From assembly GCA_015075745.1 (NCBI GenBank), contig JABTTW010000001.1, forward strand, positions 620,001-684,000: a DNA stretch of 64,000 bases, read 5' to 3'. The notes beneath the pieces are model-generated. The model was not told the DNA's origin, did not search any database, and saw only the letters and a list, made by a program, of their open reading frames with translations. This DNA is from Planctomycetia bacterium. GTDB taxonomy: Bacteria; Planctomycetota; Phycisphaerae; UBA1845; UTPLA1. Below, one piece after another: positions 6,761 to 55,377 of this stretch; the first letter of the stretch is position 1, and each line of letters starts with the position of its first letter. Both the position numbers and the translations under genes were made by a program.

Positions 6761-7597
6761 ATGCCCAGGCGCGAGGCAGTTGAAAGCGGACACACAATGA
6801 CCATGCCTACCGGCGTGCTTGCCCCAGCGAGTACGAAGTCGATCACTTACGGGGTTGTATCCTTTTTGAATGCACGCCCGCTGCGGGAGTTTATTCCCAA
6901 GCGGGAGGACGTGATCGTACGGCCGGAGGTGCCTTCGAAGCTGATTGATTTGCTCAATGCCGGGCAGTGCGACGTCGCGCTGCTGCCGGTGGTCGATTAC
7001 TGGCGGAATCGGGACCGGCTGGAGTCGGTCTCGGACGCGTGCATCGGCAGCGACGGCGAGACGATGACCGTGCGGGTCTATTCGAAGAAGCCGCCGGATC
7101 GGATTGAGCGACTTTACGTGGATGGCGATTCGCATACGTCGGTCGTGCTGGCGCGGCTGGTTTGGCTGGAGCTATACGGGCACAAGCTGGACGTTGTGCC
7201 GCTGCGGGATATGCGGATCGACCTCGATGGGCCGGCCGAGGCGGTGATGCTGATCGGCGACAAGGTCGTGACCAATGCCCCGCGCGGGTTTGGGTTTGAG
7301 GTCGATCTCGGCGCGGCGTGGAAGCACCTGACGAATCTGCCGTTCGTCTTCGCGGCATGGTATGGGCGGCGCGGCGAGCGACACCTTTCGGCGGCGCGGA
7401 TGCTCAATGAGGCGCGCGATCGGGGCGTGGCGGATGTCCGGCGAATCGCGATGGATGCCGCCCCGCTGCACGGCTGGCCGCCGGAGCTGGCGGTAAGATA
7501 CCTCGGCGAGACGATGAAGTATCGCGTCACATCGGCGATGCGGGCGGGGATGGATCGCTTCTTCTACATGGCTGAGAACCACGGGCTGTTCGCATGA
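6761..7597 (+). CDS. mqnA: Chorismate dehydratase (futalosine pathway)
   Basis: MqnA removes water from chorismate to give 3-enolpyruvylbenzoate, the first step of the futalosine route to menaquinone. The product matches the family from SITYGVVSFLNARPL onward: the binding loop VPSKLIDLLNAGQCDVALLP, then YSKKPPDRIERLYVD and DSHTSVVLARL. Two starts are possible, ATG 6761 and ATG 6797 (MTMPTG); the second would give a length closer to the family core, and neither has a clear ribosome site. The stop codon overlaps the mqnC start (ATGA), so the two are translationally coupled. Confidence 0.88.
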   Translation: MPRREAVESGHTMTMPTGVLAPASTKSITYGVVSFLNARPLREFIPKREDVIVRPEVPSKLIDLLNAGQCDVALLPVVDYWRNRDRLESVSDACIGSDGETMTVRVYSKKPPDRIERLYVDGDSHTSVVLARLVWLELYGHKLDVVPLRDMRIDLDGPAEAVMLIGDKVVTNAPRGFGFEVDLGAAWKHLTNLPFVFAAWYGRRGERHLSAARMLNEARDRGVADVRRIAMDAAPLHGWPPELAVRYLGETMKYRVTSAMRAGMDRFFYMAENHGLFA

Positions 7598-8811
7598 CGA
7601 CGATGGCGACGGCGCCGCGGACTGGTTCTTCTTCCCGGTTATCTACCCGTGATTTGCGAGATTTGTACCTGGGGCAGCCGATTCATGCCCTGGGCAGGCA
7701 GGCCTTTGAGGTGACGGAGCGGTTGCACCCGGAGGACTATCGCACCTACGTCGTCGATCGCAACATCAACTATGCCAACTGGTGCACGGCGAAGTGCATC
7801 TTCTGCAACTTCAAGGCGGACGTGCCCGGGACGAACACCGGTCGGCCGGAGCTGCCGTCGGGGTACACGCTTTCTTACGAGGAAATCGGTCAGAAGATCG
7901 AGGAACTCGTGGCCATCGGCGGGACGCAGCTGCTCATGCAGGGTGGGCTGGTTCCATCGGACGGCGCGGCGGGGCTGCCGTTCGATTGGTATCTCGATCT
8001 GATGCGCTTCATTCGCAAGAACTACCCGACGATTCACATTCACGCATTCAGTCCGCCGGAGATTTTCGCGTTTCATCAGATCTACGGCATGAGCATTCAC
8101 GACGTGCTGGCGCGGCTGATGGAGGCGGGGCTGGCCAGCGTGCCGGGCGGCGGCGGGGAGATTCTGTCTGACCGGGTGCGGAAGAAGATCGGCCAGGGCA
8201 AGACGATGACCGACGAGTGGCTCGAGGCCATGCGCCAGTGCCACATCCTCGGCATGCAGACGAGCTGCACGATGATGTTTGGGCATATCGAGACGATCGA
8301 CGAGCGGTTTGAGCATCTGCGGCTCTTGCGCGACCTTCAGGACGAGTCGCTGGCCCGGGGCAACGGCGGCGGATTCGGCGCGTTTATCTGCTGGACCTTT
8401 CAGCCGGAAGACACGCCGCTGGGGCGGATGAAGCGGCTTCCTGTTAAAGGTCAAAATGTCAAAACGTCAAAAGGTCAAAATGAAGAAGACTCAAGCAACC
8501 GATTGCTTAATGATGGGAAGCATCTGCTGCTGGCCGATGCGAACGAGTATCTGACGATGCTGGCGCTGTCGCGGGTCTATCTCGACAACATCCCGAACAT
8601 TCAATCGAGCTGGGTCACGATGGGGCCGAAGATCGGTCAGCTTGCCCTGTTCTTCGGGGCCAACGACATGGGCAGCGTGATGATGGAGGAAAACGTCGTC
8701 AGCGCCGCGGGGACGACGTACCGACTCAACGAAGACGAAATCCGCCGGCTCATCTCCGACGCAGGCTGGCGGCCGCAGAAGCGTGACTATTTCTACCGGC
8801 CGATCAATTGA
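7594..8811 (+). CDS. mqnC: Cyclic dehypoxanthinyl futalosine synthase, radical SAM
   Basis: MqnC is a radical SAM enzyme that cyclises dehypoxanthine futalosine in menaquinone synthesis. The cluster motif is CTAKCIFC (CX3CX2C), followed by QGGLVPSD, the TMMFGHIET segment and the C-terminal DNIPNIQSSWVTMGPK and GANDMGSVMMEENVVSAAG, which distinguish MqnC from MqnE. An oddity is a hydrophilic insert at about residues 285-300 (VKGQNVKTSKGQNEED). It is encoded by a GTCAAAA-type tandem repeat and sits just before the region that normally continues to YL-TLALSRLYLDN. The N-terminus is also about 20 residues longer than usual. Confidence 0.9.
   Translation: MTTMATAPRTGSSSRLSTRDLRDLYLGQPIHALGRQAFEVTERLHPEDYRTYVVDRNINYANWCTAKCIFCNFKADVPGTNTGRPELPSGYTLSYEEIGQKIEELVAIGGTQLLMQGGLVPSDGAAGLPFDWYLDLMRFIRKNYPTIHIHAFSPPEIFAFHQIYGMSIHDVLARLMEAGLASVPGGGGEILSDRVRKKIGQGKTMTDEWLEAMRQCHILGMQTSCTMMFGHIETIDERFEHLRLLRDLQDESLARGNGGGFGAFICWTFQPEDTPLGRMKRLPVKGQNVKTSKGQNEEDSSNRLLNDGKHLLLADANEYLTMLALSRVYLDNIPNIQSSWVTMGPKIGQLALFFGANDMGSVMMEENVVSAAGTTYRLNEDEIRRLISDAGWRPQKRDYFYRPIN
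8449..8482 (+). repeat. GTCAAAA tandem repeat inside mqnC
   Basis: Four 8-bp units of the form GTCAAAAN stand in tandem within the mqnC reading frame and keep it open. A related array lies in intergenic DNA at 56768-56800, where the minus strand reads AAAACGTCAAAACGCC. The base composition is unlike the surrounding GC-rich coding sequence. Confidence 0.75.
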
Positions 8812-43695: not shown

Positions 43696-43974
43696 TTGAT
43701 GAAGCGAAGACGACATGGCCCGGAGCAGATCATCGCCAAGCTGCGTGAGGCGGACGCGATGCTGACGGCCGGGGCGAGCATCGGTCAGGTGTGCCAGCGG
43801 CTGGAAGTCAGCGAGCCGACCCTTCACCGCTGGCGGAACCAGTACGGCGGGATGAAGGCCGAGGCGGCCAAGCAGCTCAAGGAGCTGGAGATCGAGAACC
43901 GCCGGCTAAAGAAGGCGGTGGCCGACCTGATTCTGGACAAGCAGATCCTGGAGGAAGTGCTGAAGGGAAAATAG
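43696..43974 (+). CDS. IS3-family transposase OrfA
   Basis: The 92-residue product is a helix-turn-helix DNA-binding protein (RRRHGPEQIIAKLREAD, then GQVCQRLEVSEPTLHRWRNQYGG) followed by a leucine-zipper-like helix (LKELEIENRRLKKAVADLILDK). It matches the OrfA of IS407-like elements. Its stop codon directly follows the slippery heptamer GGGAAAA (43965-43971), so part of the ribosomes should shift -1 into orfB. Confidence 0.92.
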   Translation: MMKRRRHGPEQIIAKLREADAMLTAGASIGQVCQRLEVSEPTLHRWRNQYGGMKAEAAKQLKELEIENRRLKKAVADLILDKQILEEVLKGK

Positions 43975-44945
43975 CGAGCCCGGCGCGCCGCAGGGAGGCG
44001 GTGCAGGAGGCGCAGACGGCATGCGAGGTGTCGGAGCGTCGGGCGTGTGAGGTGGTTGGTCAGCCGCGAAGCACTCAGCGGTACGAGCCGCTCGTGGTGG
44101 AGGATGAGCCGATGCTGGTGCGCGCGATGCATGAGCAGGTACGACACCATCCCCGGTATGGCTACCGTCGGGTCTGGGCGCTCTTGCGGGGTGAGGGCTG
44201 GAAGGTGAACCGCAAGCGAGTTTATCGCTTGTGGCGGAAGGAAGGGTTTCGAGTGCCTCGAAGGCAGCACAAGAAGCGCAGATTGGGCCATAGCGACGGG
44301 GGGATTCTGCGTCATCGCCCGGAACACCCCAACCACGTCTGGGCCTGGGATTTCATCCATGACCGGGATGAGGGCCATCGGTCGCTGAAGTGGTTGACGC
44401 TGGTCGACGAGTACACCCGGGAGTGCCTGGCGTTGGAAGTCGAGCGCGGCATGACCGCCTCGGTGATCATCGACATCGTCGCCCAGGTGATCCTCATTCG
44501 CGGGGCGCCGCGGTTCCTCCGCAGTGACAACGGTCCGGAGTTCATCGCCCAGGCGCTGCGAAGCTACTTGGAGGCGGCGCAGATTGGCACGCTCTACATC
44601 GAGCCGGGCAGCCCCTGGGAGAACGGCTACTCCGAGAGCTTCAATGGCAAGCTGCGCGATGAACTGCTCAATGCCGAGTCTTTCGCCGATCTGCGCGAGG
44701 CCAAGGTCCTGGCGGCCACCTGGCAAAATGATTACAACCACCATCGGCCGCATTCGTCGCTGGGCTATCAGACGCCGGCGGCGTATGCGGCCCAGTGTAG
44801 ATCGGAAGCCTTGGGGGCCCTGCCCCCAAACCCCCGCCAAGGGCTCTGCCCCTGGACCCCGGCTTCTTCCCCTCCTGCCGGTTCGCTATCAGCGCCTGCG
44901 CAGGATCGAAAAGTGGACTCGACTCTCATAGCAACTGGTACATAA
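43965..44945 (+). CDS. IS3-family transposase OrfB (DDE integrase), made by -1 frameshift
   Basis: After the shift at GGGAAAA the frame continues GKIASPARRREAV. The catalytic core holds WAWDFIHDRD (first Asp), LRSDNGPEF (second Asp) and NGYSESFNGKLRDELL (Glu), with HRPHSSLGYQTPAAYA closing the domain. The last 50 residues (LPPNPRQGLCPW...) are not part of the family and come from a GC-rich low-complexity stretch before the right inverted repeat. The frame is intact from the shift site to its stop. Confidence 0.9.
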   Translation, partial: GKIASPARRREAVQEAQTACEVSERRACEVVGQPRSTQRYEPLVVEDEPMLVRAMHEQVRHHPRYGYRRVWALLRGEGWKVNRKRVYRLWRKEGFRVPRRQHKKRRLGHSDGGILRHRPEHPNHVWAWDFIHDRDEGHRSLKWLTLVDEYTRECLALEVERGMTASVIIDIVAQVILIRGAPRFLRSDNGPEFIAQALRSYLEAAQIGTLYIEPGSPWENGYSESFNGKLRDELLNAESFADLREAKVLAATWQNDYNHHRPHSSLGYQTPAAYAAQCRSEALGALPPNPRQGLCPWTPASSPPAGSLSAPAQDRKVDSTLIATGT

Positions 44946-45001: not shown

Positions 45002-46762
45002 CTACACGACTTCGTTGGAAGTGACCAGACTCGCCGCGTCCTGCACCGAGTGGCCGCAGAGTTGGCCGATGGAGATGACCGCCGTCGGTTCGGCCGGGTC
45101 TTCGATCCGCCAGATGACGAGCTGGTCGCGGCGGTCGTTGATGCCGGCGATCCACGGCCCGGCCGCCAGGGCCCAGCGCATCGGCTGGCCCGCCGCGTAC
45201 TTCGTGCTCACCTGCTCGCCGGGGATCATCATCTCCAGATGCGGCCGCCGGTCGGCGATCAGCAGGCGCGGCACCCCGCCGCCCTCCAGAAAAACGATCG
45301 ACTCCACCGCGCTGCCGCAGGCAAAGCGCAGCGAATCCATCAACTGCGGCGCATCGGCCCGCCACGAGACGATCTGCCCCGACTCCAGCCCCGCGTAAAT
45401 CGCCCCTTCAGCGAGGGTCAGCGCTGTGACACTGGCCGGCGCGTTCATGACGATCGGCTCGGCCTCGCCGTCCGGCCCGATGCCCACGACGCGGCGATCG
45501 ACGGCCATCCACGCCGTGCCTTTATCATCCGTCCGCAGGTCGCGCACCGACTTGGCCGTGAGGAACAGCTCGGCGCGCGGCAGATCGAAATGATCCGTCC
45601 TGCGAAGGGCCCACTCGATCAGCCCCACCTCCGAGTGCGTCGCCAGAAGCCGCTCGCCGATGACCGCCGCCGCGTTCACCCCGCCGCGAAGGGGCCGGTC
45701 CACGTCGAAGAGGAAGGTCAGCCGCGGGTCCTGCTCGGTCCGCAGCACATGCACGCCGCGCTTCGCCCCCGCCAGCACGACCGACTTACCCTCCCAGGTC
45801 CCCGCGTGCACCGAGCGCAGCGGGCCCGCGTCGCCGGCCAGCGACAATCGGCGCGTCGGCCTCGCCGGCGATGCCGGGTCGAACCACAGCAGTTCATCCC
45901 CGGCGACGATCAGAATCGTGTGCGACTGCGCGGCGCCGCCTTGCCGCGCGAGCAGCGCCTGATACAGCCCCCCGCGCTGAAGCGGATCAAACGCGCGGAT
46001 CAGCTCCACCAGCGAGCTGCCCTTGTTCTTTTCCGCCATCGCCTGAAGACGATCGAGCGTGTCGGCCAGCTCGGTCAGCCGCTGCCGCCTGGCATCGGAC
46101 GACAGCTCCCGCAGCTTCTGCTCCGCCGCGATGCGATCGGCCCGAAGCTTCTGCACGCGCTGGGCCTCGGCCGCCCGGGCGAAGTCCTTCGACGCCGTGA
46201 CGATGCGCGCGTCGCCGACCAATTCCAGCCCCGACGAAAAGCCGACCGGCTTGAACGCATCCTCCAGAATGGCGTCGAACTGCGGCCAGGTCTGCGGCGA
46301 GAGCAGGTCCGCCGCGCTGCGGGCCTTCACAAAGGTCTCCACCGCCGAATGAACCGCCTCGGCGCAGTACGTCTGCAGCGCGTCCAGCGTCACCGCCGCG
46401 GCACTGCCCATCAGGCGATCGCAAAAGCCCGCCAGCTCGGTGCGCTCCGCCACCACCCTGACCTGAAGGCCGACCGACGCGGACAGTTCAAAACCGTCGG
46501 AGGAACTGAGCCGATCGAAGTTGTACCCCAGCGAAAAAGGCGCTTTGCGAACGAACATCACGCGGACAGCGCCGTCGGCCTCAATCATCGAACCGGGCCC
46601 CGCGACGCGCGGCGAGCCCACTTGCGGCCAGACCATCGCGGAGCAGTCCGGCGGAAGCACCAGCGAACGCGTCAGGAACGAAAAGACGTCCCCCGCCGCC
46701 GCCCGCCGCGCCACCAGCCGCTCGTCGCCCAGAAAATTCGAGATTTCAAATTTGGTCGTCAT
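45002..46762 (-). CDS. SPFH-like domain, coiled coil and beta-propeller protein of the ESCRT-like locus
   Basis: Residues 1-205 follow the SPFH/band-7 pattern: VLPPDCSAMVWPQVG, FVRKAPFSLGYNF, a strand repeat (SSDGFELSASVGLQVRVV), then helices with SAVETFVKARSAADLL and GLELVGDARIVTASKDF. A charged coiled coil (about 205-275, RADRIAAEQKLRELSSDARRQRL) leads to repeated WD40-like beta strands (about 285-570). SPFH proteins scaffold membrane domains and are known partners of PspA, a bacterial ESCRT-III relative. It is the last gene of the leftward cluster, 44 bp after the ATPase. ATG 46762 is used; a TTG at 46810 overlapping the ATPase stop is an alternative. Confidence 0.68.
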   Translation of the reverse strand: MTTKFEISNFLGDERLVARRAAAGDVFSFLTRSLVLPPDCSAMVWPQVGSPRVAGPGSMIEADGAVRVMFVRKAPFSLGYNFDRLSSSDGFELSASVGLQVRVVAERTELAGFCDRLMGSAAAVTLDALQTYCAEAVHSAVETFVKARSAADLLSPQTWPQFDAILEDAFKPVGFSSGLELVGDARIVTASKDFARAAEAQRVQKLRADRIAAEQKLRELSSDARRQRLTELADTLDRLQAMAEKNKGSSLVELIRAFDPLQRGGLYQALLARQGGAAQSHTILIVAGDELLWFDPASPARPTRRLSLAGDAGPLRSVHAGTWEGKSVVLAGAKRGVHVLRTEQDPRLTFLFDVDRPLRGGVNAAAVIGERLLATHSEVGLIEWALRRTDHFDLPRAELFLTAKSVRDLRTDDKGTAWMAVDRRVVGIGPDGEAEPIVMNAPASVTALTLAEGAIYAGLESGQIVSWRADAPQLMDSLRFACGSAVESIVFLEGGGVPRLLIADRRPHLEMMIPGEQVSTKYAAGQPMRWALAAGPWIAGINDRRDQLVIWRIEDPAEPTAVISIGQLCGHSVQDAASLVTSNEVV

Positions 46763-46806
46763 TGCGTTGATTGTAGATTGCGCCGCACGACATATCAGGA
46801 AGTTTG

Positions 46807-47925
46807 TCAATGCGACTTTGAGAACTCTTCAAAGCGGATCAGGTCCTTCTTCCGCACCGACGGGCCGACCGCTTCAATCGCCGCGACCAGGTCCGCCTTG
46901 CCGATCGCCCCCGCTCCCGCGCCGCCGACGGCCTTCATGAAGGGAATCGTCGCCGCCCGCTCGGCCACCGCCTTGATGTCCGCCCCGCTGTAGCCGTCGA
47001 GCAGCCGCACCATCTCGGCGAAGTCGATGTCCGCCGCCAGCGGCCGCTTGCCGAGGTATATCTCGAGCAGCTTGAAGCGCGCCGGCTCATCCGGCAGCGG
47101 CACATAGACCTTCGCATCAAACCGCCCCGGCCGCATGACCGCCGCGTCCAGGGCCCACGGCTCGTTCGTCGCGCCGACGAAAAGCAGCGAGCGCGTCGAG
47201 CTTCGATCGAACCCTTCCAGTTCCTGCAATATCTGCGGCACCACGCGCGTCATGACGCTGCTGTTCGAATCGCGCCGGCTCGGCACCAGCGACTCGATCT
47301 CGTCGATGAAGATGATCGCCCGCGCCTCGGCCTTCGCCGCCGTGAACAGCTTGCGAATGTTCTGCTCCGCCTCGCCGACCCACTTCGAAAGCACCTGCGC
47401 CGGGCTGATGACGAACATCGTCGCGTCGATCTCGCAGGCGATGGCCTTGGCGATCATCGTCTTGCCTGTGCCGGGCGGGCCATAGAGCAAGAGCCCCCCG
47501 CCTGTGGAGATGCCATACCGCTGCGCCAACTCCGCATGGGCGAAGGGGTAGATCATCTTCAGGCGTATCTCGTGCTTGACGTCTTCCAGCCCGGCGATGT
47601 CGTCGAAGCGGATGCTCGGCTTGTCGCGGACGATCCAGTCCTGGGCGTTGGCCCCCTTCTCGTCTTCATCGCCGCTGGCCGCGCGGCGCCGCTCCTCTTT
47701 GCGATGCTCGCCCTTGAGATCGCACTGCTTGGCAAACTCGATCAACTCGGCCGCCATCGCCTTGCGCCGCTGGCGCTGCGCGGCGTCGGAGGTCTCCGCG
47801 GCGATCTTGATCATCGCATCGGCCGCCTGCATGAGAAACGGCTTGGCCGCGGGATAGTCCCCGTTCTTGTAGGCGGCGAGGCCGCGTTCTTTCAGGCGTT
47901 CGAAGGTATCGTAGGAGACGGACAT
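46807..47925 (-). CDS. Vps4-like AAA ATPase with N-terminal MIT-like domain
   Basis: The 372-residue product has a three-helix MIT-like bundle at residues 5-70 (AYKNGDYPAAKPFLMQAADA). A charged linker and a single AAA module follow: DDIAGLEDVKHEIR (107-120), Walker A GPPGTGKT (149-156), pore loop SKWVGEAE (180-187), Walker B IIFIDEIESL (204-213), sensor GATN (251-254) and RPGRFD (265-270). It closes with YVPLPDEPARFKLLEIYLG and GYSGADIKAVAERAA. The KWxGExE loop and this layout are the marks of the Vps4/katanin clade, whose members disassemble ESCRT-III filaments. ATG 47925 fits the MIT start. It lies between three Snf7-like genes and the SPFH gene. Confidence 0.85.
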   Translation of the reverse strand: MSVSYDTFERLKERGLAAYKNGDYPAAKPFLMQAADAMIKIAAETSDAAQRQRRKAMAAELIEFAKQCDLKGEHRKEERRRAASGDEDEKGANAQDWIVRDKPSIRFDDIAGLEDVKHEIRLKMIYPFAHAELAQRYGISTGGGLLLYGPPGTGKTMIAKAIACEIDATMFVISPAQVLSKWVGEAEQNIRKLFTAAKAEARAIIFIDEIESLVPSRRDSNSSVMTRVVPQILQELEGFDRSSTRSLLFVGATNEPWALDAAVMRPGRFDAKVYVPLPDEPARFKLLEIYLGKRPLAADIDFAEMVRLLDGYSGADIKAVAERAATIPFMKAVGGAGAGAIGKADLVAAIEAVGPSVRKKDLIRFEEFSKSH

Positions 47926-48022
47926 GGTTGAATAGTGAGTAATGATGAATGGAGAATCAAGTAACAACAACAGCCGCTATAGACGAAATTCCGAGGCCCC
48001 TCGACCTAAGCTTGATTACGAA

Positions 48023-49433: not shown

Positions 49434-49790
49434 TTACTCGCGGGCATCCTGGGACACACGAATCCGCTCACCACGGATCGTAATAATGGCCCCGGCTTCA
49501 AGAGCCTCTCCGTGGTTTTCCAACACCATTTTCAGTAAGTCAATCCGCCGTTGGACGGCCACGTCCGGCATTCGGATGATCCCTGCGTGTGGCTGGTCAC
49601 GCACAAACACCAGTGCGCCAAAGTCTTTGTCAATGGTGATAAGAACCCTGCCCTGCTCGCGGGCCCACCGCAGTAGAATTTCGTCGCCAGGGTCCGGCCC
49701 GAGCGCCGGAGCATAGATTGAATCATGCCCCGATTCCCTGAGCCAATCGGACAAGCGCAACCCAATGCACCGATCCACCAGGAATCTCAT
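49434..49790 (-). CDS. DUF5615 PIN-like toxin component
   Basis: From ATG 49790 the 118-residue product starts MRFLVDRCIGLRLSDWL and continues PGDEILLRWAREQGRVLITIDKDFGALVF. This carries the first Asp (LVD), the acidic centre and the TxDxDF motif of DUF5615, a PIN-domain relative with likely RNase activity. The start overlaps the DUF433 stop (ATGA). DUF433-DUF5615 pairs are known toxin-antitoxin modules. The 3' end lies 7 bp from the detached ESCRT-III tail. Confidence 0.82.
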   Translation of the reverse strand: MRFLVDRCIGLRLSDWLRESGHDSIYAPALGPDPGDEILLRWAREQGRVLITIDKDFGALVFVRDQPHAGIIRMPDVAVQRRIDLLKMVLENHGEALEAGAIITIRGERIRVSQDARE

Positions 49791-50032
49791 GCCGACACTC
49801 TGACGCAATCCAGTGAGTCATTCGCAATCACCGCGTGGGCATAAGCGAGACACGCCTGAATATCCTCCGGTTTGAGGTCCGGGTAGTCGCCAAGCAGCGT
49901 TTCGACAGTCTCGCCTTGGGCCAAGAGGCTCAGGATCAATTCCACCGATATGCGCATGTCACGAACGATCGGCTTGCCGCCGAAAACGTCCGGGCGCGAC
50001 GTGATGCGTTCCAGCAGACCTTCTTTCGTCAT
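49787..50032 (-). CDS. DUF433 antitoxin component
   Basis: The 81-residue product matches DUF433: ITSRPDVFGGKPIVRDMRISVELILSLLAQGETVETLLGDYPDLKPEDIQACLAYA. It is a small helix-turn-helix protein and the usual antitoxin partner of DUF5615/PIN-like toxins. It is coupled to the downstream toxin gene by ATGA and lies 59 bp beyond the ESCRT-III-like gene. Confidence 0.85.
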   Translation of the reverse strand: MTKEGLLERITSRPDVFGGKPIVRDMRISVELILSLLAQGETVETLLGDYPDLKPEDIQACLAYAHAVIANDSLDCVRVSA

Positions 50033-50091: not shown

Positions 50092-50700
50092 TTACTTCGC
50101 TTCCTTCTGCCCCGCGTTCTTCACCGCGTTCAGCTCCGCGCGCAGCGCGTCGAGTTCGTCCACGTCCTTGGCGTGTTCCGCCTCGCTTTCCGCCTCGATC
50201 ATCGCGTCGATCTCCTGCTCGGTCACGACTTCCCTCGGCACCTCGGCCGTGTCGCTCGCGGCGATGTCCTCGACCGTCTCGAGGAACATGCTCATCCGCT
50301 CTTCCATGCTCTGACTCTGGGCCATCGCCTTTTCCCACTCGGTCTGGGTGCGCACGAGGTCGGTCTGGCCGAACATCCGGCCGATCTCCGAGGCCATCGT
50401 CCCCATCGCCTGGGCGAAATCGCTCGACGCCTCGGCCTGCCGTTTGATGATCAGCGCGTTCTTCACGGCGAGCAGTTGCCGCTCGAGCATCTTCTTCACC
50501 GTCGCCGTCTTCTTGAGCGAGTTGCGGATGAAGATGTACTGCGAGTTATCGCCGATCTGCTTGGCCCGTCGGGCGTTCTTGATGAACTCGTTGGTGAACT
50601 TGTTCTGCTCCGAGATCGACTTCTCAATCCGCCGGATGCCCTGGCGAATCTTGATGTCCCGCTCGATCCGCCGCTCTTCTTCGCTCTTGAATAGACTCAT
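50092..50700 (-). CDS. ESCRT-III (Snf7/CHMP)-like protein with MIM1-like tail
   Basis: The 202-residue all-helical product starts MSLFKSEEERRIER, a short amphipathic N-terminus, then a basic helical hairpin (RQGIRRIEKSISEQNKFTNEFIKNARRAKQIGD and RNSLKKTATVKKMLERQLLAVKNALIIKRQ). The following SSDFAQAMGTMASEIGRM and SMEERMSMFLETVED resemble the matching helices of CHMP1/2/3. An acidic half ends in LRAELNAVK, close to the MIM1 pattern LxxRLxxLK that binds Vps4 MIT domains. A basic N-half and acidic C-half are typical of ESCRT-III. The start overlaps the previous gene by ATGA. Confidence 0.75.
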   Translation of the reverse strand: MSLFKSEEERRIERDIKIRQGIRRIEKSISEQNKFTNEFIKNARRAKQIGDNSQYIFIRNSLKKTATVKKMLERQLLAVKNALIIKRQAEASSDFAQAMGTMASEIGRMFGQTDLVRTQTEWEKAMAQSQSMEERMSMFLETVEDIAASDTAEVPREVVTEQEIDAMIEAESEAEHAKDVDELDALRAELNAVKNAGQKEAK

Positions 50701-51266
50701 CTCGGCTCCTCGCCTTCTCGCCGTCGCTCAATGGTCACTGCCTCGCTGCGCGATTCGTCGCTGTCCTCGGCCTCGCCTGACAAGGCCTTGACCGCCTGCT
50801 CGTGCGCCGTCGTGTCGCTCGTCAACCGATGCCCGCAGCGACCGCAATAGGTCGCCCGCAGATTCACCACCGGCGCGGTACAGCTCGGGCAGGCCGCCGG
50901 CGTCTTCGTCTCATAGGCCGCGTCATCCATCAGGAACGCTTCGAGCATCGCCCCGATACTCGAACTCCGCGGATGCTCCCCGAAAGAAATCGCGGCGATC
51001 GTCTGTCCTCGCTTTCGGCTCAATTCCACATCGACATACGCCCGGTGCTTCGGCTTATCGAGAAAATAGGTCGAGGCCATCTGAAGCATGCCGGAGATGC
51101 CATCATCGGTCCTGCCATGCTGCGCCGGCACATCGGCATCCGCCTCGATCCGCAGACACTCCGCATACCACGGCGTCGTCACCTTGCAGCCCCGCCGCGC
51201 GGCGAACTGCATGATCGCCCGGCGAACCTGGTCCTTGCTGTGATCGACCGCCGCTTCGAGTGCCAC
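50697..51266 (-). CDS. Zinc-ribbon protein of the ESCRT-like locus
   Basis: The 189-residue product begins at a GTG 2 nt after the preceding stop. An alpha/beta region (about 1-105, ending YVDVELSRKRGQTIAAISFGEH) is followed by a zinc ribbon (CPSCTAPVVNLRATYCGRCG, about 125-144) and a charged disordered tail. No family was recognised. Tight spacing to both neighbours, both ESCRT-III-like genes, marks it as part of the same operon. Confidence 0.7.
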   Translation of the reverse strand: MALEAAVDHSKDQVRRAIMQFAARRGCKVTTPWYAECLRIEADADVPAQHGRTDDGISGMLQMASTYFLDKPKHRAYVDVELSRKRGQTIAAISFGEHPRSSSIGAMLEAFLMDDAAYETKTPAACPSCTAPVVNLRATYCGRCGHRLTSDTTAHEQAVKALSGEAEDSDESRSEAVTIERRREGEEPR

Positions 51267-51268
51267 CG

Positions 51269-51874
51269 CTATGCCCCTTCAGCCGACTTGTGTCGCTCCC
51301 GGACGCGCTTGTCCGCCTCGTCGAAGGCCTGACTCGCGTCGTCGATGAGCCCCGTGTCCATCTGTTCCCAGACATCGAGCACCTGCTTGGAGCCCGGCGT
51401 GAGAATCGACTCGCCTTCTTCCTCGCCGATCGACAGCATCGAGTCGAGCCGCTCCTGATACATATCCGCCGTGATCTTGTCGTTCTCGATCATCTTCTCC
51501 AGCGTCACGAGGTCGCGCTCGCCGATCATCCCCAGCCGCGAGCCCATCGACTTGGCCTTATCCGCGTTCTCCCGCAGCATGCGCATCCGCGAGACGGTCA
51601 GGTACTCCTTCGTGCGCATATTGAGCTGACGGCCGGCCATGAGCTGCTCGGTCGTCTTCAGGTCGAACTCCTGCGCCAGAATCCGCCGCACTTCGGGCGA
51701 TTTCTCCTGCCGGCCCTTCTCGAAGATCTCCTGCTTCTTCGTCGCACAGTCGCTGACCCGTTTGAGCAGTTGCTCGCGGTCGCGCCCCAGGAGCAGTTCC
51801 TGTCGCCGAAGCTCCTGCCGCGTCATCTGCGACAGGGACTTGTTTCGCTTTGTCAGCCAGTCGAATAATCCCAT
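51269..51874 (-). CDS. ESCRT-III (Snf7)-like helical protein
   Basis: The 201-residue product starts MGLFDWLTKRNKS, an amphipathic anchor like the ESCRT-III N-terminal helix. A basic long helical hairpin follows (RQELRRQELLLGRDREQLLKRVSDCATKKQEIFEKGRQEKSPEVRRILAQEFDLKTTEQLMAGRQL), then shorter helices (SRLGMIGERDLVTLEKMIEN) and an acidic C-terminal part (VLDVWEQMDTGLIDDASQAFDEAD). Size, charge distribution and helix pattern fit Snf7 or PspA-like proteins; the assignment is by pattern. It begins 33 bp after the winged-helix-Snf7 gene. Confidence 0.65.
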   Translation of the reverse strand: MGLFDWLTKRNKSLSQMTRQELRRQELLLGRDREQLLKRVSDCATKKQEIFEKGRQEKSPEVRRILAQEFDLKTTEQLMAGRQLNMRTKEYLTVSRMRMLRENADKAKSMGSRLGMIGERDLVTLEKMIENDKITADMYQERLDSMLSIGEEEGESILTPGSKQVLDVWEQMDTGLIDDASQAFDEADKRVRERHKSAEGA

Positions 51875-51906: not shown

Positions 51907-53319
51907 TCACTCCGCCTGCGGCCCGCTACGCTCGCGCGACGGCGCCTGTGTCTTGGCTGTCTGCGACTCGCCGACGGCCGGTGTCTTCTCCGGCGGGGCC
52001 TTCTCCTCGTCGCCGCCCTGAAGCTCCTTCAGAATTGCCGCCTCATCGTCCGACATGGCCGACTGCGCCATGTTCACTTCCAGGCTGCTCACCAGATCGT
52101 CGCTGGCCGTCAGTTGCTCCAGCATCTCCTCGGCGTTCACCGCCGCCTCGGTCAGTTCCTCGCTCGACGGCAGATGAGCGATGCTTCCGGTCTGGGCCAG
52201 TTGCAGGTTGTGAATGTGCGTGCTGATGATGTTGATCTGCTTGGACAGCAGCGCCGCGCTGGTGTTGCACCGGCTGATGTCCTTGCGCATGTGGGAGATC
52301 TGCGCGGCGATGCGCCGCTTCACCACGTTCGACGTCGCCGTCTTGCCCTCGTCGACGAGCTGCGTCTCCTTCTTTTCCAGCTTGCCGATGTCGTCGTACA
52401 TCCGGTTCAGCCGGTCGGACAGCGCCGCCCGCCGCTCGGAGAGCAGGTTGATCTTCTTCGCCTCGTCCCCTTCACTGAAAAAGAGACTGCGAACCCATTC
52501 GAACATCGACATCGAACCAACCTCCTCGCCCGAGTACATACCCGCGCCGCGGAAGAGCAGATATTCGCCGGATCGCCTTGAGACGCGCAGGTCCGGGTCG
52601 CTCCTTGCGGCGGTTTCAAACGCCTGCTGCACCACCTTGACCGGCAGCTCCAGCCGAGCCGCCATGCTGCTCGCCGACAGACCGCCGGTCAGCAGATCGG
52701 TGCTGCGCTCCTCGATCTCCCGGCGAACCCGATCGATCTTCTGAGCGACATTCTCCGGATTAAACAGCTTCAGCAGCCGTTCGTCGATCTTCCGCCCGGG
52801 CGATGATATTTTCCACCCGCCGGCCGACGCCGGCTCCACCAGCACCAGGGTCACATTGGGAATATCGAGCGGCGCGCGATACACACTTTCTTCAAAGCCG
52901 CTCGGACTGCACACGCCGATAACATGCGGCGCCCGAAGGTCCGTCGTCAGCGACCGAACATGCGACGCCAACTGCACCAGCGTCACCGGACCGGGCGGCG
53001 TGTCCGGCGTCAGCAGCGGCTCCGGCGGGACCAGCGTCGTCGCGACCGTCACCCCCTGGAGCTTCCGCCAGAAGAATAGCCGCCGCGCCCACTGACGGAT
53101 GACAAACCCCTTGCCCTGCGGCAACTCGGCCGCCAGCGCCCGATCGTGCAGTCGCCGGTCGATCATCGCCGCGCGCACGCGCTCGCCGGAGTCGATCTCC
53201 TGAAACGTGGTGAGCCTGCCGCGGTCGTAGCGCGAACCCGCCTCGCGGATGTTCTGCTGAACCCCCACGAGATAAGCCGACTCCATTTCTATTGCGCGTT
53301 TCGCAGCGGGGTTTACCAT
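51907..53319 (-). CDS. Winged-helix plus Snf7-like fusion protein (CHMP7-like layout)
   Basis: The 470-residue product has three parts. Residues 1-185 form an alpha/beta region without a recognised family. Residues 190-257 (IEERSTDLLTGGLSASSMAARLELPVKVVQQAFETAARSDPDLRVSRRSGEYLLF) have the helix-helix-helix-wing pattern of a winged helix. Residues 271-436 begin MFEWVRSLFF and form a Snf7-like hairpin (NLLSERRAALSDRLNRMYDDIGKLEKKETQLVDEGKT, VVKRRIAAQISHMRKDISRCNTSAALLSKQINIISTHIHNLQLAQ) and the downstream helices ending SDDEAAILKELQ. Eukaryotic CHMP7 joins ESCRT-II-type winged helices to an ESCRT-III core in the same order. A Pro-rich tail follows. Confidence 0.68.
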   Translation of the reverse strand: MVNPAAKRAIEMESAYLVGVQQNIREAGSRYDRGRLTTFQEIDSGERVRAAMIDRRLHDRALAAELPQGKGFVIRQWARRLFFWRKLQGVTVATTLVPPEPLLTPDTPPGPVTLVQLASHVRSLTTDLRAPHVIGVCSPSGFEESVYRAPLDIPNVTLVLVEPASAGGWKISSPGRKIDERLLKLFNPENVAQKIDRVRREIEERSTDLLTGGLSASSMAARLELPVKVVQQAFETAARSDPDLRVSRRSGEYLLFRGAGMYSGEEVGSMSMFEWVRSLFFSEGDEAKKINLLSERRAALSDRLNRMYDDIGKLEKKETQLVDEGKTATSNVVKRRIAAQISHMRKDISRCNTSAALLSKQINIISTHIHNLQLAQTGSIAHLPSSEELTEAAVNAEEMLEQLTASDDLVSSLEVNMAQSAMSDDEAAILKELQGGDEEKAPPEKTPAVGESQTAKTQAPSRERSGPQAE

Positions 53320-53391
53320 ATTGGCCGACTCATTCTCCTGCCTTGATGAAACGTTTGCGATGGCGTCTAAAGCGAGAGGCAGTTGACTGAT

Positions 53392-53673
53392 CTAATGCTG
53401 TTCGCCTTCGCGGGCCGCGTGGCCGCACAACCGGCAGAACTTCGCATGACCGGGGTTCATCGCCCGGCATTGGGGTCGCGGGCATCGCCACGGCTCCATC
53501 CACTCCTCTTCGGAAAGGGAATTGCCGTTTCTGTCGTACATATTGTCCAGTTCCCTGCCGTTATCCCAGCCCGGCCCTCGAATGACCCTCAGAAGGCAGG
53601 AAAACACAAAAATGGTAAACCCGGCAAAGAAGAGCAGGGCAAACAACGGCATCCCGGTTGACCAGATAACCAT
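53392..53673 (-). CDS. Small membrane protein with zinc ribbon
   Basis: The 93-residue product has one membrane helix (PLFALLFFAGFTIFVFSCLLRVI) and a C-terminal zinc finger (CPRPQCRAMNPGHAKFCRLCG), similar to the ribbons of the kinase encoded immediately upstream. The ATG follows the kinase stop by 3 nt. It probably displays its zinc finger on the cytoplasmic face of the membrane as part of the same pathway; this is inferred from position. Confidence 0.7.
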   Translation of the reverse strand: MVIWSTGMPLFALLFFAGFTIFVFSCLLRVIRGPGWDNGRELDNMYDRNGNSLSEEEWMEPWRCPRPQCRAMNPGHAKFCRLCGHAAREGEQH

Positions 53674-53676
53674 GGT

Positions 53677-54765
53677 CTATCCCCCCGTCGCCATCAGCTC
53701 GCCGCCGCAGTGAATGCAGAACCGGTCGTCCGACTCCGGATAGCCGCCGCATTGAGGACATTTTCGCAGGGTCGCCGTTAACTGCTTGCCGCATGAAATG
53801 CAGAAATTGTCGCCCGCCTCGATCGGCGCACGGCACGATGGGCATGCCCCCCCGGATATCGGACGCGCGCCCGGGACACGATTCACCGGAATCGCCGGAA
53901 CCGTTGGAACCGTCGGTATCGTCGCCGCGCTCACCGGCCGCGCCTCCGATTGACCAATGGCCCGAAGGACATCCGCCGCGCCGGGGAACCGCCGCTCGCG
54001 CCGCGTGTAGAGTCTCGCGAAGACTGGATCGATCCACGGCGGCAAGGCCTCGCGCAGATGCGACGGCATGTCGCTCCCGCTGGGCCGCTGACCGGTGATG
54101 AGTTCAAACAGCACGATGCCGACGGCGTACAAATCGCTCCGCGCGTCGGTCGCCTCGCCGTCGCGCTGCTCCGGGGCCATGTAGGCGATCGTCCCGGAGA
54201 TGTTCTTGCCGTCTTCGGCGAGCAGACTGCCCGATTGCATGATGCTGTTGGCCGTCACTTCGCCCACTCGCCCGAGCCCGAAGTCCGTGACCTTCACGTC
54301 ATCGACGCCCAGCTCTTCGACCGGCTTCTCCTTGCCGCCCGCGATGAGAATGTTGGCCGGCTTGATGTCTCGATGAATAACGCCATTGGCGTGGGCGTGC
54401 TCCAGGCCCTCCAGGATGCCGCGCAAGATCCGATGCGCCGTACGCACCGGCATCCCCTCGCGATACCGCTTGATCCACCCTTCCAGCGAGAGACCGTCCA
54501 CGAACTCCATCACCAGATAGGGCGTCTCCGCGTAGGGATCGAGGCCAATGGCCCGGACGATGTTCTTGTGGCGCAGGCCGTGAATCGTGCAGCCCTCTTT
54601 TTGAAGATTGCGCACGAACTGCGAATCGGTCGGGACCTTGATGGCGACGATCTCTTCTTTCCAGACGTGGTGCCGGGCCTTCCAGACCTGTCCAAAGCTG
54701 CCCGCGCCGACCATCTCGACGAGGACGTATTCGCTGATGCGGTCGCCGGCTTGTGGACCGTTCAT
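53677..54765 (-). CDS. Ser/Thr protein kinase with C-terminal zinc ribbons
   Basis: The 362-residue product is a Hanks-type kinase: VGAGSFGQVWKA glycine loop, Lys43 in VAIKV, HRDIKPAN (131-138), DFG (161-163), and GTIAYMAPEQ. After the catalytic domain (to about residue 270) a Pro/Ala linker leads to two zinc ribbons (CPSCRAPIEAGDNFCISCG and CPQCGGYPESDDRFCIHCG). All catalytic residues are present. GAAGGG lies 6 nt before the ATG. Its place in the ESCRT-like operon suggests that it phosphorylates components of that system, which is inference. Confidence 0.88.
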   Translation of the reverse strand: MNGPQAGDRISEYVLVEMVGAGSFGQVWKARHHVWKEEIVAIKVPTDSQFVRNLQKEGCTIHGLRHKNIVRAIGLDPYAETPYLVMEFVDGLSLEGWIKRYREGMPVRTAHRILRGILEGLEHAHANGVIHRDIKPANILIAGGKEKPVEELGVDDVKVTDFGLGRVGEVTANSIMQSGSLLAEDGKNISGTIAYMAPEQRDGEATDARSDLYAVGIVLFELITGQRPSGSDMPSHLREALPPWIDPVFARLYTRRERRFPGAADVLRAIGQSEARPVSAATIPTVPTVPAIPVNRVPGARPISGGACPSCRAPIEAGDNFCISCGKQLTATLRKCPQCGGYPESDDRFCIHCGGELMATGG

Positions 54766-54816: not shown

Positions 54817-55242
54817 TCATGGTCCCACATGCCTCGCCAGCGACTCACAAATGACGAAATTATAGGCCGCTGCGGCGGCGAAACCAACGATCAACACGAA
54901 CCATGCGAGACTGCCGGAGACTCCTCCGCCTGCCAGCCACAGCGCGAGCAGTATATCCAGTAGACAATACGTACCGAGCAGCCCCAGGCTCACGATCGCC
55001 GCGCCGGAAGCCGTCGTCTGCTTGGCCTGTATGGCAAGCAGCGGTCGCATGAACAGGTAACTCGACCACGGCAGAGCGGCCACGACCACCAGCCAGATCA
55101 GCGTGTACTTGACCACGTTGCCGAAGGCCTTGACCGAGTCCGGATTCTGATAGCACCAGAACCCCCCCGCCGCCACGGCGATGAAGATCGCCGCCGTCGC
55201 CACCTTGGCCCCCACGAACTTCCCAATGTCCGCTAGTATCAC
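54817..55242 (-). CDS. Four-helix membrane protein at the head of the ESCRT-like locus
   Basis: From GTG 55242 (GAGGAG 6 nt upstream) the 141-residue product has four hydrophobic segments: ATAAIFIAVAAGGFWCY, YTLIWLVVVAALPW, AAIVSLGLLGTYCLLDILLALWL and LAWFVLIVGFAAAAAYNFVI. No family was recognised. It is 51 bp upstream of the kinase gene on the same strand, so it may be the first gene of the operon and supply a membrane anchor. Confidence 0.65.
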   Translation of the reverse strand: MILADIGKFVGAKVATAAIFIAVAAGGFWCYQNPDSVKAFGNVVKYTLIWLVVVAALPWSSYLFMRPLLAIQAKQTTASGAAIVSLGLLGTYCLLDILLALWLAGGGVSGSLAWFVLIVGFAAAAAYNFVICESLARHVGP

Positions 55243-55377
55243 GCGAGACTCCTCACGATCCGCCCCATTTTGAATATACCACACCCCGCCACGCCGCGGG
55301 CTTACAAACCTGTGTTGTGTTTGGAACGGCTTTTCTTCGCGGAAAGGCCGAATTCTTCCGCGCGATCGCCCTAAATA

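Follow-up and report, generated by a model that had tools for sequence, protein, structure and literature searches.

Does a bacterial gene whose product carries a winged helix ahead of ESCRT-III-like helices share its origin with eukaryotic CHMP7, or was it assembled within bacteria, and how might such a protein work? The question is raised by a 470-aa open reading frame (ORF), the target gene, which runs from 53319 to 51907 on the minus strand of the window, the 64,000-nucleotide stretch of planctomycete DNA analyzed here (Table 1). An initial annotation, made from the letters of the sequence, had described a winged helix and an ESCRT-III core joined in CHMP7 order, in an operon that also encodes a Vps4-like ATPase, and had suggested either deep ancestry or transfer. 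The reading that we favor, at a probability of roughly two in three, is that the target serves as adaptor subunit in a bacterial ESCRT-III/Vps4-like membrane-remodeling system, that it was fused locally, and that its gene gives a dual product.

Table 1. Features of the target gene and its operon, with positions counted from the first letter of the window
Feature	Position	Strand	Basis
Hydrophobic protein of 155 aa, probably in the membrane; conserved in the operon	54817..55284	-	Conserved order
Ser/Thr protein kinase that carries a double zinc ribbon; conserved in the operon	53677..54765	-	Domain scan, conserved order
93-aa membrane protein with zinc ribbon	53392..53673	-	Domain scan, conserved order
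Target gene: N-terminal domain, winged helix, ESCRT-III-like core, disordered tail	51907..53319	-	ORF, ortholog survey, model
Target residues 1-185, unrecognized alpha/beta domain	52765..53319	-	Confident in model
Target residues 190-257, winged helix	52549..52752	-	Model, Foldseek, VIA-align
GAGGAGG, internal Shine-Dalgarno 8 nt upstream of codon 270	52521..52527	-	Sequence, ortholog conservation
Internal ATG (M270), where a predicted ESCRT-III-only product of 201 aa would begin	52510..52512	-	Sequence, orthologs
Target residues 270-436, ESCRT-III-like helices (alpha0, alpha1, alpha2/3, alpha4, alpha5)	52012..52512	-	Model, Foldseek, profile comparisons
Target residues 437-470, low-complexity tail with short C-terminal peptide	51910..52011	-	Alignments
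B201, a second ESCRT-III-like protein of 201 aa, with homology to target residues 270-436	51269..51874	-	Profile comparisons
189-aa zinc-ribbon protein, in the operon of some relatives only	50697..51266	-	Domain scan, conserved order
202-aa Snf7-clade ESCRT-III protein (C202) with C-terminal MIM1-like helix	50092..50700	-	Pfam, PDB profile, Foldseek
Vps4-like ATPase: MIT-like N terminus, one AAA domain, Vps4_C; likely start 47925	46807..47970	-	Domain scans, profiles
602-aa conserved operon member, weak Band_7/SPFH N-terminal match	45002..46810	-	Domain scan, conserved order

Domain architecture of the target protein

An AlphaFold2 model of the target, built with 50 orthologs, had a mean pLDDT of 84.7 and a pTM of 0.69. 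The winged helix that had been placed at about residues 190 to 257 was recovered at 191 to 257, with helices at 191 to 204, 206 to 211, 216 to 223, and 227 to 240 and strands at 244 to 249 and 252 to 257. Beyond a poorly defined linker (residues 264 to 269; pLDDT < 50), the model contains helices at 272 to 281, 286 to 327, 331 to 377, 386 to 417, and 424 to 434, in good agreement with an ESCRT-III core annotated at 271 to 436. These form a hairpin of alpha1 and alpha2/alpha3 followed by alpha4 and alpha5, as in ESCRT-III, and they match the plan of alpha0, alpha1, alpha2/3, alpha4, and alpha5 described for ESCRT-III, Vipp1, and PspA (PMC8281802). With Foldseek, the first part of the model matched winged-helix regulators, while the C-terminal part matched the ESCRT-III filaments of Sulfolobus CdvB2 over about 180 columns, from alpha1 to alpha5. 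The initial annotation had named a missing winged helix or an unrelated C-terminal coiled coil as outcomes that would speak against it; the model showed neither.

The first 185 residues had been set apart as a third, unrecognized part. They form a confident alpha/beta domain with no relative in Pfam or PDB-sequence profile searches. A restriction-endonuclease-like fold was considered for this domain on the basis of its strand order and an EcoRI row in Foldseek (E = 0.18), and was set aside as weak and unsupported. For the target as a whole, comparisons with Pfam, NCBIfam, PADLOC, and PDB profiles were empty or gave spurious matches (Laminin_I and designed coiled coils). At the other end of the protein, a conserved short peptide resembling a docking signal (window 51910 to 51930) follows a low-complexity stretch that varies among orthologs. 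It reads PQAE in the window and PEAS or PEAN in many orthologs, with RPEM also found. The tails of the target and of the 201-aa neighbor were scanned for the MIM1 pattern only, which was not above the level of shuffled tails.

Kinship with ESCRT-III

The hairpin by itself is not proof of ESCRT-III, because unrelated coiled coils fit it with VIA-align Z scores equal to or above those of ESCRT-III. We therefore tie the target to ESCRT-III through a chain of comparisons that begins with the 202-aa protein, the most conserved member of the operon. This neighbor is a real Snf7-clade ESCRT-III homolog. Pfam Snf7 was matched by 15 of the 32 members of its family (best E = 2.7e-6), the score of the window's own copy being below the curated cutoff. 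When the family profile was compared with all PDB sequences, there were five matches only, three to SNF7 and one each to CHMP3 and CHMP2A (best E = 0.006), and the 19 best Foldseek matches of its model (pLDDT 75) were all ESCRT-III, CdvB, or Vipp1. In the window's order its tail is an amphipathic helix of the form LxxLRAELxxLK, which is close to MIM1 with Glu in place of Arg; the full MIM1 consensus closes 3 of 108 sequences of this protein, all of them distant. PspA_IM30 was absent among the matches listed for the target, the 201-aa and 202-aa proteins, and their relatives.

From this anchor, the chain reaches the target in two steps. The 201-aa and 202-aa proteins aligned colinearly in a profile comparison (P = 1.9e-4), and the C-terminal half of the target aligned colinearly with the 201-aa protein over about 143 columns (P = 1.7e-7). 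Controls for both pairs (reversed alignments and 20 column shuffles each) stayed at background level. The direct comparison of the target's C terminus with the 202-aa protein was not significant (P = 0.06), and Pfam and PDB-sequence searches gave no direct ESCRT-III link for it, so the assignment depends on the two-step chain together with fold and context. On these profile comparisons, the C-terminal half of the target appears to join the Snf7 clade via its 201-aa neighbor.

It might be argued instead that this half is just an antiparallel coiled coil of a generic kind, lying by chance beside a Snf7-like gene. The Z scores of generic helical hairpins would fit that reading, as would the designed coiled coils that the target's C terminus matched among PDB sequences. 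We consider such a coincidence improbable because the homology is colinear from the target through the 201-aa protein to the Snf7-clade protein and is lost on reversal, and because the CdvB2 match extends from alpha1 to alpha5. Moreover, the target's C terminus and its neighbors belong to one operon, are of equal size when the target is counted from codon 270, and have a like N-terminal pattern.

A conserved operon with a Vps4-like ATPase

On the minus strand, the operon encodes in order a membrane protein, the kinase, a membrane/zinc-ribbon protein, the target, the 201-aa protein, a zinc-ribbon protein, and the 202-aa protein. The Vps4-like ATPase and the 602-aa gene come after the 202-aa gene, past about 2 kb of unrelated inserted genes. 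Relatives show the same gene order, in many cases lacking the insert of about 2 kb, and the operon is conserved across an order of Phycisphaerae. The C-terminal half of the 602-aa protein is possibly a beta-propeller. Scans for promoters and terminators did no better than shuffled sequences.

The ATPase lies on the same strand as the target, and on its sequence features it can be called Vps4-like. A single AAA domain was found in all 19 of its relatives and Vps4_C in 17 of 19 (best E = 9.9e-7); the window's own protein scored 19.8 bits for Vps4_C, against a cutoff of 21.3. The profile of its N-terminal three-helix region aligned end to end with the MIT domain of human Vps4B (E = 9e-5; profile positions 12 to 96). 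The Pfam MIT model itself was not matched, and TPR models were matched weakly; longer TPR proteins outscored MIT for this region only through repeating a short stretch. The CdvC and CDC48 models scored the window's ATPase alike, both far under their cutoffs. Matches to IetA had raised an antiphage role for the ATPase, which we rejected, putting them down to generic AAA similarity.

Several other observations concern mobile or accessory genes around the operon. The region separating the ATPase from the 202-aa gene holds, at window 49434 to 50032, an inserted pair of a DUF433-like protein of 81 aa and a PIN-like protein of 124 aa, as read by eye. This is possibly a toxin-antitoxin-type pair, and a close copy occurs in L033 at 7369 to 7958. 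An IS3-type transposase, also named by eye, sits at window 43791 to 44945, just downstream of the end of the operon.

Origin of the fusion and the likeness to CHMP7

In a distant sample of 294 genomes from the phylum, the 202-aa gene was found in 54. Of these distant loci, 16, all from other classes and so outside the window's order, contain the N-terminal and winged-helix part of the target, and in every one of them the reading frame stops almost directly after the winged helix, no more than a few residues on. In the distant loci that we read, a separate ESCRT-III-like gene follows; the two abut in L063 and overlap by 4 nt in L067. Full-length target matches inside the order, by comparison, were all fused. 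Since the parts are separate genes in all 16 of the outside loci and fused in every full-length match inside the order, the fusion is a derived trait of one lineage, and the data support its origin in the window's order of Phycisphaerae from two adjacent genes.

These results bear directly on CHMP7. In both proteins a winged helix stands ahead of an ESCRT-III core in one chain, so the part of the initial annotation that concerned domain order stands. Its suggestion that this order reflects descent or transfer is not supported. CHMP7 carries tandem Vps25-like winged helices (PMC7618577), whereas the target has one, behind an alpha/beta domain unrelated to CHMP7, and a predicted dual product. 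CHMP7 also binds LEM2 and acts at the nuclear envelope, a structure that a bacterium does not have. ESCRT-II, Vps25, and CHMP7 were absent among the winged-helix matches listed for the target, which is uninformative either way. A fusion derived inside a bacterial order makes the likeness to CHMP7 convergent. Despite the shared order and the ESCRT-III-like C-terminal half, it is therefore very hard to believe that the target is a true CHMP7-type protein with a fusion ancestry common to the eukaryotic one, by vertical descent or transfer.

The distant loci also differ in their content. Small putative lipoprotein genes lie beside the 202-aa gene inside two distant operons (L061:3764-4348 and L080:10041-10637). 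Operons of other classes (L062, L067, L069, L079, L080, and others) hold extra ESCRT-III-like paralogs and a second MIT-AAA ATPase, with the pore motif SKYFGESS in place of SKWVGEAE. In three distant loci (L066, L073, and L077), the separate N-terminal and winged-helix protein is fronted by what by eye is a MerR-like helix-turn-helix; Pfam MerR_1 matched one of these three with E = 2.4e-5.

The MerR-like domains give some weight to another view of the target, in which its winged-helix part regulates the operon by binding DNA and was at some point joined to an ESCRT-III-like protein. Under this hypothesis the fusion would sense the state of the membrane and control transcription, and the short product would be structural. 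The winged-helix matches in Foldseek and VIA-align are indeed transcription regulators, and pspA often adjoins winged-helix genes (PMC10936438). However, few basic residues occur in the helix that takes the recognition position (judged by eye from the alignment), and in archaeal ESCRT systems winged-helix domains serve protein contacts (PMC10936438). We regard a regulator as unlikely; most likely, the N-terminal domain and winged helix bind a partner or a site of action.

A probable internal start at codon 270

Codon 270 of the fused gene is the old start of the second, once separate gene. Translation from it would yield a protein of 201 aa, in the same size class as both ESCRT-III-like neighbors. 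A pattern placed the junction in 74 of the 88 collected orthologs, so the presence of a start codon at this position in 74 of 74 (69 ATG and 5 GTG) partly reflects how the site was located. The Shine-Dalgarno motif was not in the pattern. It was present at positions -17 to -5 of codon 270 in 67 of 74 orthologs, compared to 67 of 645 (10%) other in-frame internal ATGs, and the mean duplex energy with the 16S tail was -8.1 versus -3.1 kcal/mol. Codon 270 is also the sole Met column conserved in more than 60% of the family, and it held Met in 47 of 50 sequences of a site-blind alignment.

Could these features belong to the protein, or be relics, with the long product alone being made? An amphipathic helix might account for the Glu and Met-Ser at the junction, and the motif descends from the former start site of the second gene. 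We find this explanation doubtful because the choice of codons is 5.7 standard deviations above a null with the protein fixed: resampling of synonymous codons gave 46 ± 3.7 Shine-Dalgarno motifs, against 67 observed. With one sequence per 65%-identity cluster, a weaker test, there were 17 motifs in 19 sequences, against 12.6 ± 1.9 expected. Twelve different amino acids occur just before the conserved Glu, yet G is the third base of the codon at that position in 57 of 74 orthologs (43% expected). Where Val replaces Met, it uses GTG in five of five cases, and the motif is kept between fused orthologs that are only about 25% identical. Together, these patterns offer good sequence evidence that the second product is selected for. 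The ribosome-binding site and start codon of the former second gene have survived inside the fused one, which therefore probably produces an ESCRT-III-only protein of 201 aa in addition to the long fusion.

By contrast, the first start codon of the target in the window, read directly, has its GGAG 15 nt ahead of it, farther than usual. A six-codon leader ORF (MSRPIW; window 53313 to 53333) overlaps the start of the gene.

Distribution and the absence of FtsZ

Of 101 related genomes, 88 carry the target, nearly always as a single copy, and 85 carry the 202-aa gene. Both were present in 84 genomes and neither in 12, with 5 discordant, so that the two agreed in 96 of 101. All matching database records come from uncultured bacteria, nearly all of them Planctomycetota and mostly Phycisphaerae/Phycisphaerales.

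The window's own genome (97% complete) has no match to FtsZ and none to PspA. Among the 101 relatives, a full FtsZ match was seen in one only (G086:C302), in an assembly with 8% contamination, and is probably foreign. The absence of FtsZ is general in planctomycetes (PMC6952346), and a match was missing in 284 of the 294 genomes sampled from the phylum. We considered whether ESCRT might replace FtsZ throughout the phylum. This was rejected: only 54 of the sampled genomes have the 202-aa gene, and since most planctomycetes without FtsZ are also without the operon, the operon is not a phylum-wide replacement. Mutual exclusion of PspA and the operon was likewise rejected, as several genomes carry both.

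A proposed model for the predicted dual product

In the adaptor reading, the ESCRT-III-like helices of the target, judging from their fold and family, would co-polymerize with the 201-aa and 202-aa paralogs on the cytoplasmic face of the membrane. By analogy with ESCRT, the two neighbors and the short product would form a composite membrane filament, in which the plain 201-aa product from codon 270 may act as a filament subunit. The long product, present in few copies, could be a nucleator or adaptor that positions the filament via its N-terminal domain and winged helix. The Vps4-like ATPase would pull subunits out by helices at their C termini, for instance the MIM1-like one that ends the 202-aa protein. 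The kinase may regulate assembly and, together with the membrane proteins of the operon, might regulate or anchor the filament, again by analogy with ESCRT.

A bolder proposal is that this is an ESCRT-III/Vps4 machine of the archaeal-eukaryotic type that has a part in the division or internal membrane scission of FtsZ-less bacteria, with two starts setting the ratio of nucleator to filament subunit. We put it forward tentatively, with the odds against it. The engine of FtsZ-less binary fission in planctomycetes is not known (PMC6952346), and the operon, sitting in such planctomycetes, is a concrete and testable candidate. Retaining an internal start after two genes fuse would also be a genetic trick by which one gene supplies both nucleator and filament subunit.

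Comparison with known systems

Bacteria have been described as being without a clear Vps4 and as having a single PspA/Vipp1 protein for their ESCRT-III (PMC7615534), and ESCRT homologs have been reported in archaea with none in bacteria (PMC10936438). Both statements are contradicted by the planctomycete operon, a conserved bacterial gene set that encodes three ESCRT-III-like proteins together with a Vps4-like ATPase. It differs from PspA/Vipp1 systems in having several paralogs and the ATPase in place of a single PspA, and in the Snf7 matches of its 202-aa protein. Transfer of Vps4-like AAA proteins to bacteria has been reported elsewhere (PMC11237479), which is a point of likeness, but in those bacteria snf7 is reported to have been displaced by a TPR/6TM gene, whereas the planctomycete operon keeps Snf7-type genes beside the ATPase.

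With the CdvB/CdvC system of Thermoproteota, the operon shares an ESCRT-III-type filament protein, a Vps4-type ATPase, a fusion of ESCRT-III with a winged helix, and FtsZ-less cells. The winged helix is C-terminal in CdvB and N-terminal in the target, and CdvA was not among the matches reported for the window proteins covered by the general scan. That a winged helix has been joined to ESCRT-III more than once bears on the view of CHMP7 as a unique relic.

The archaeal ESCRT loci (PMC10936438) resemble the operon in having a Vps4 with MIT, several ESCRT-III-like proteins, and a Ser/Thr kinase. They also have a winged-helix gene just upstream of an ESCRT-III-like gene and, in some loci, an SPFH-type protein. 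In contrast to these loci, the planctomycete winged helix is fused to ESCRT-III, with a predicted internal start and an unrecognized N-terminal domain. Among the systems met in this analysis, for which the literature was open-access PMC, the planctomycete operon is the nearest bacterial counterpart of the archaeal ESCRT loci.
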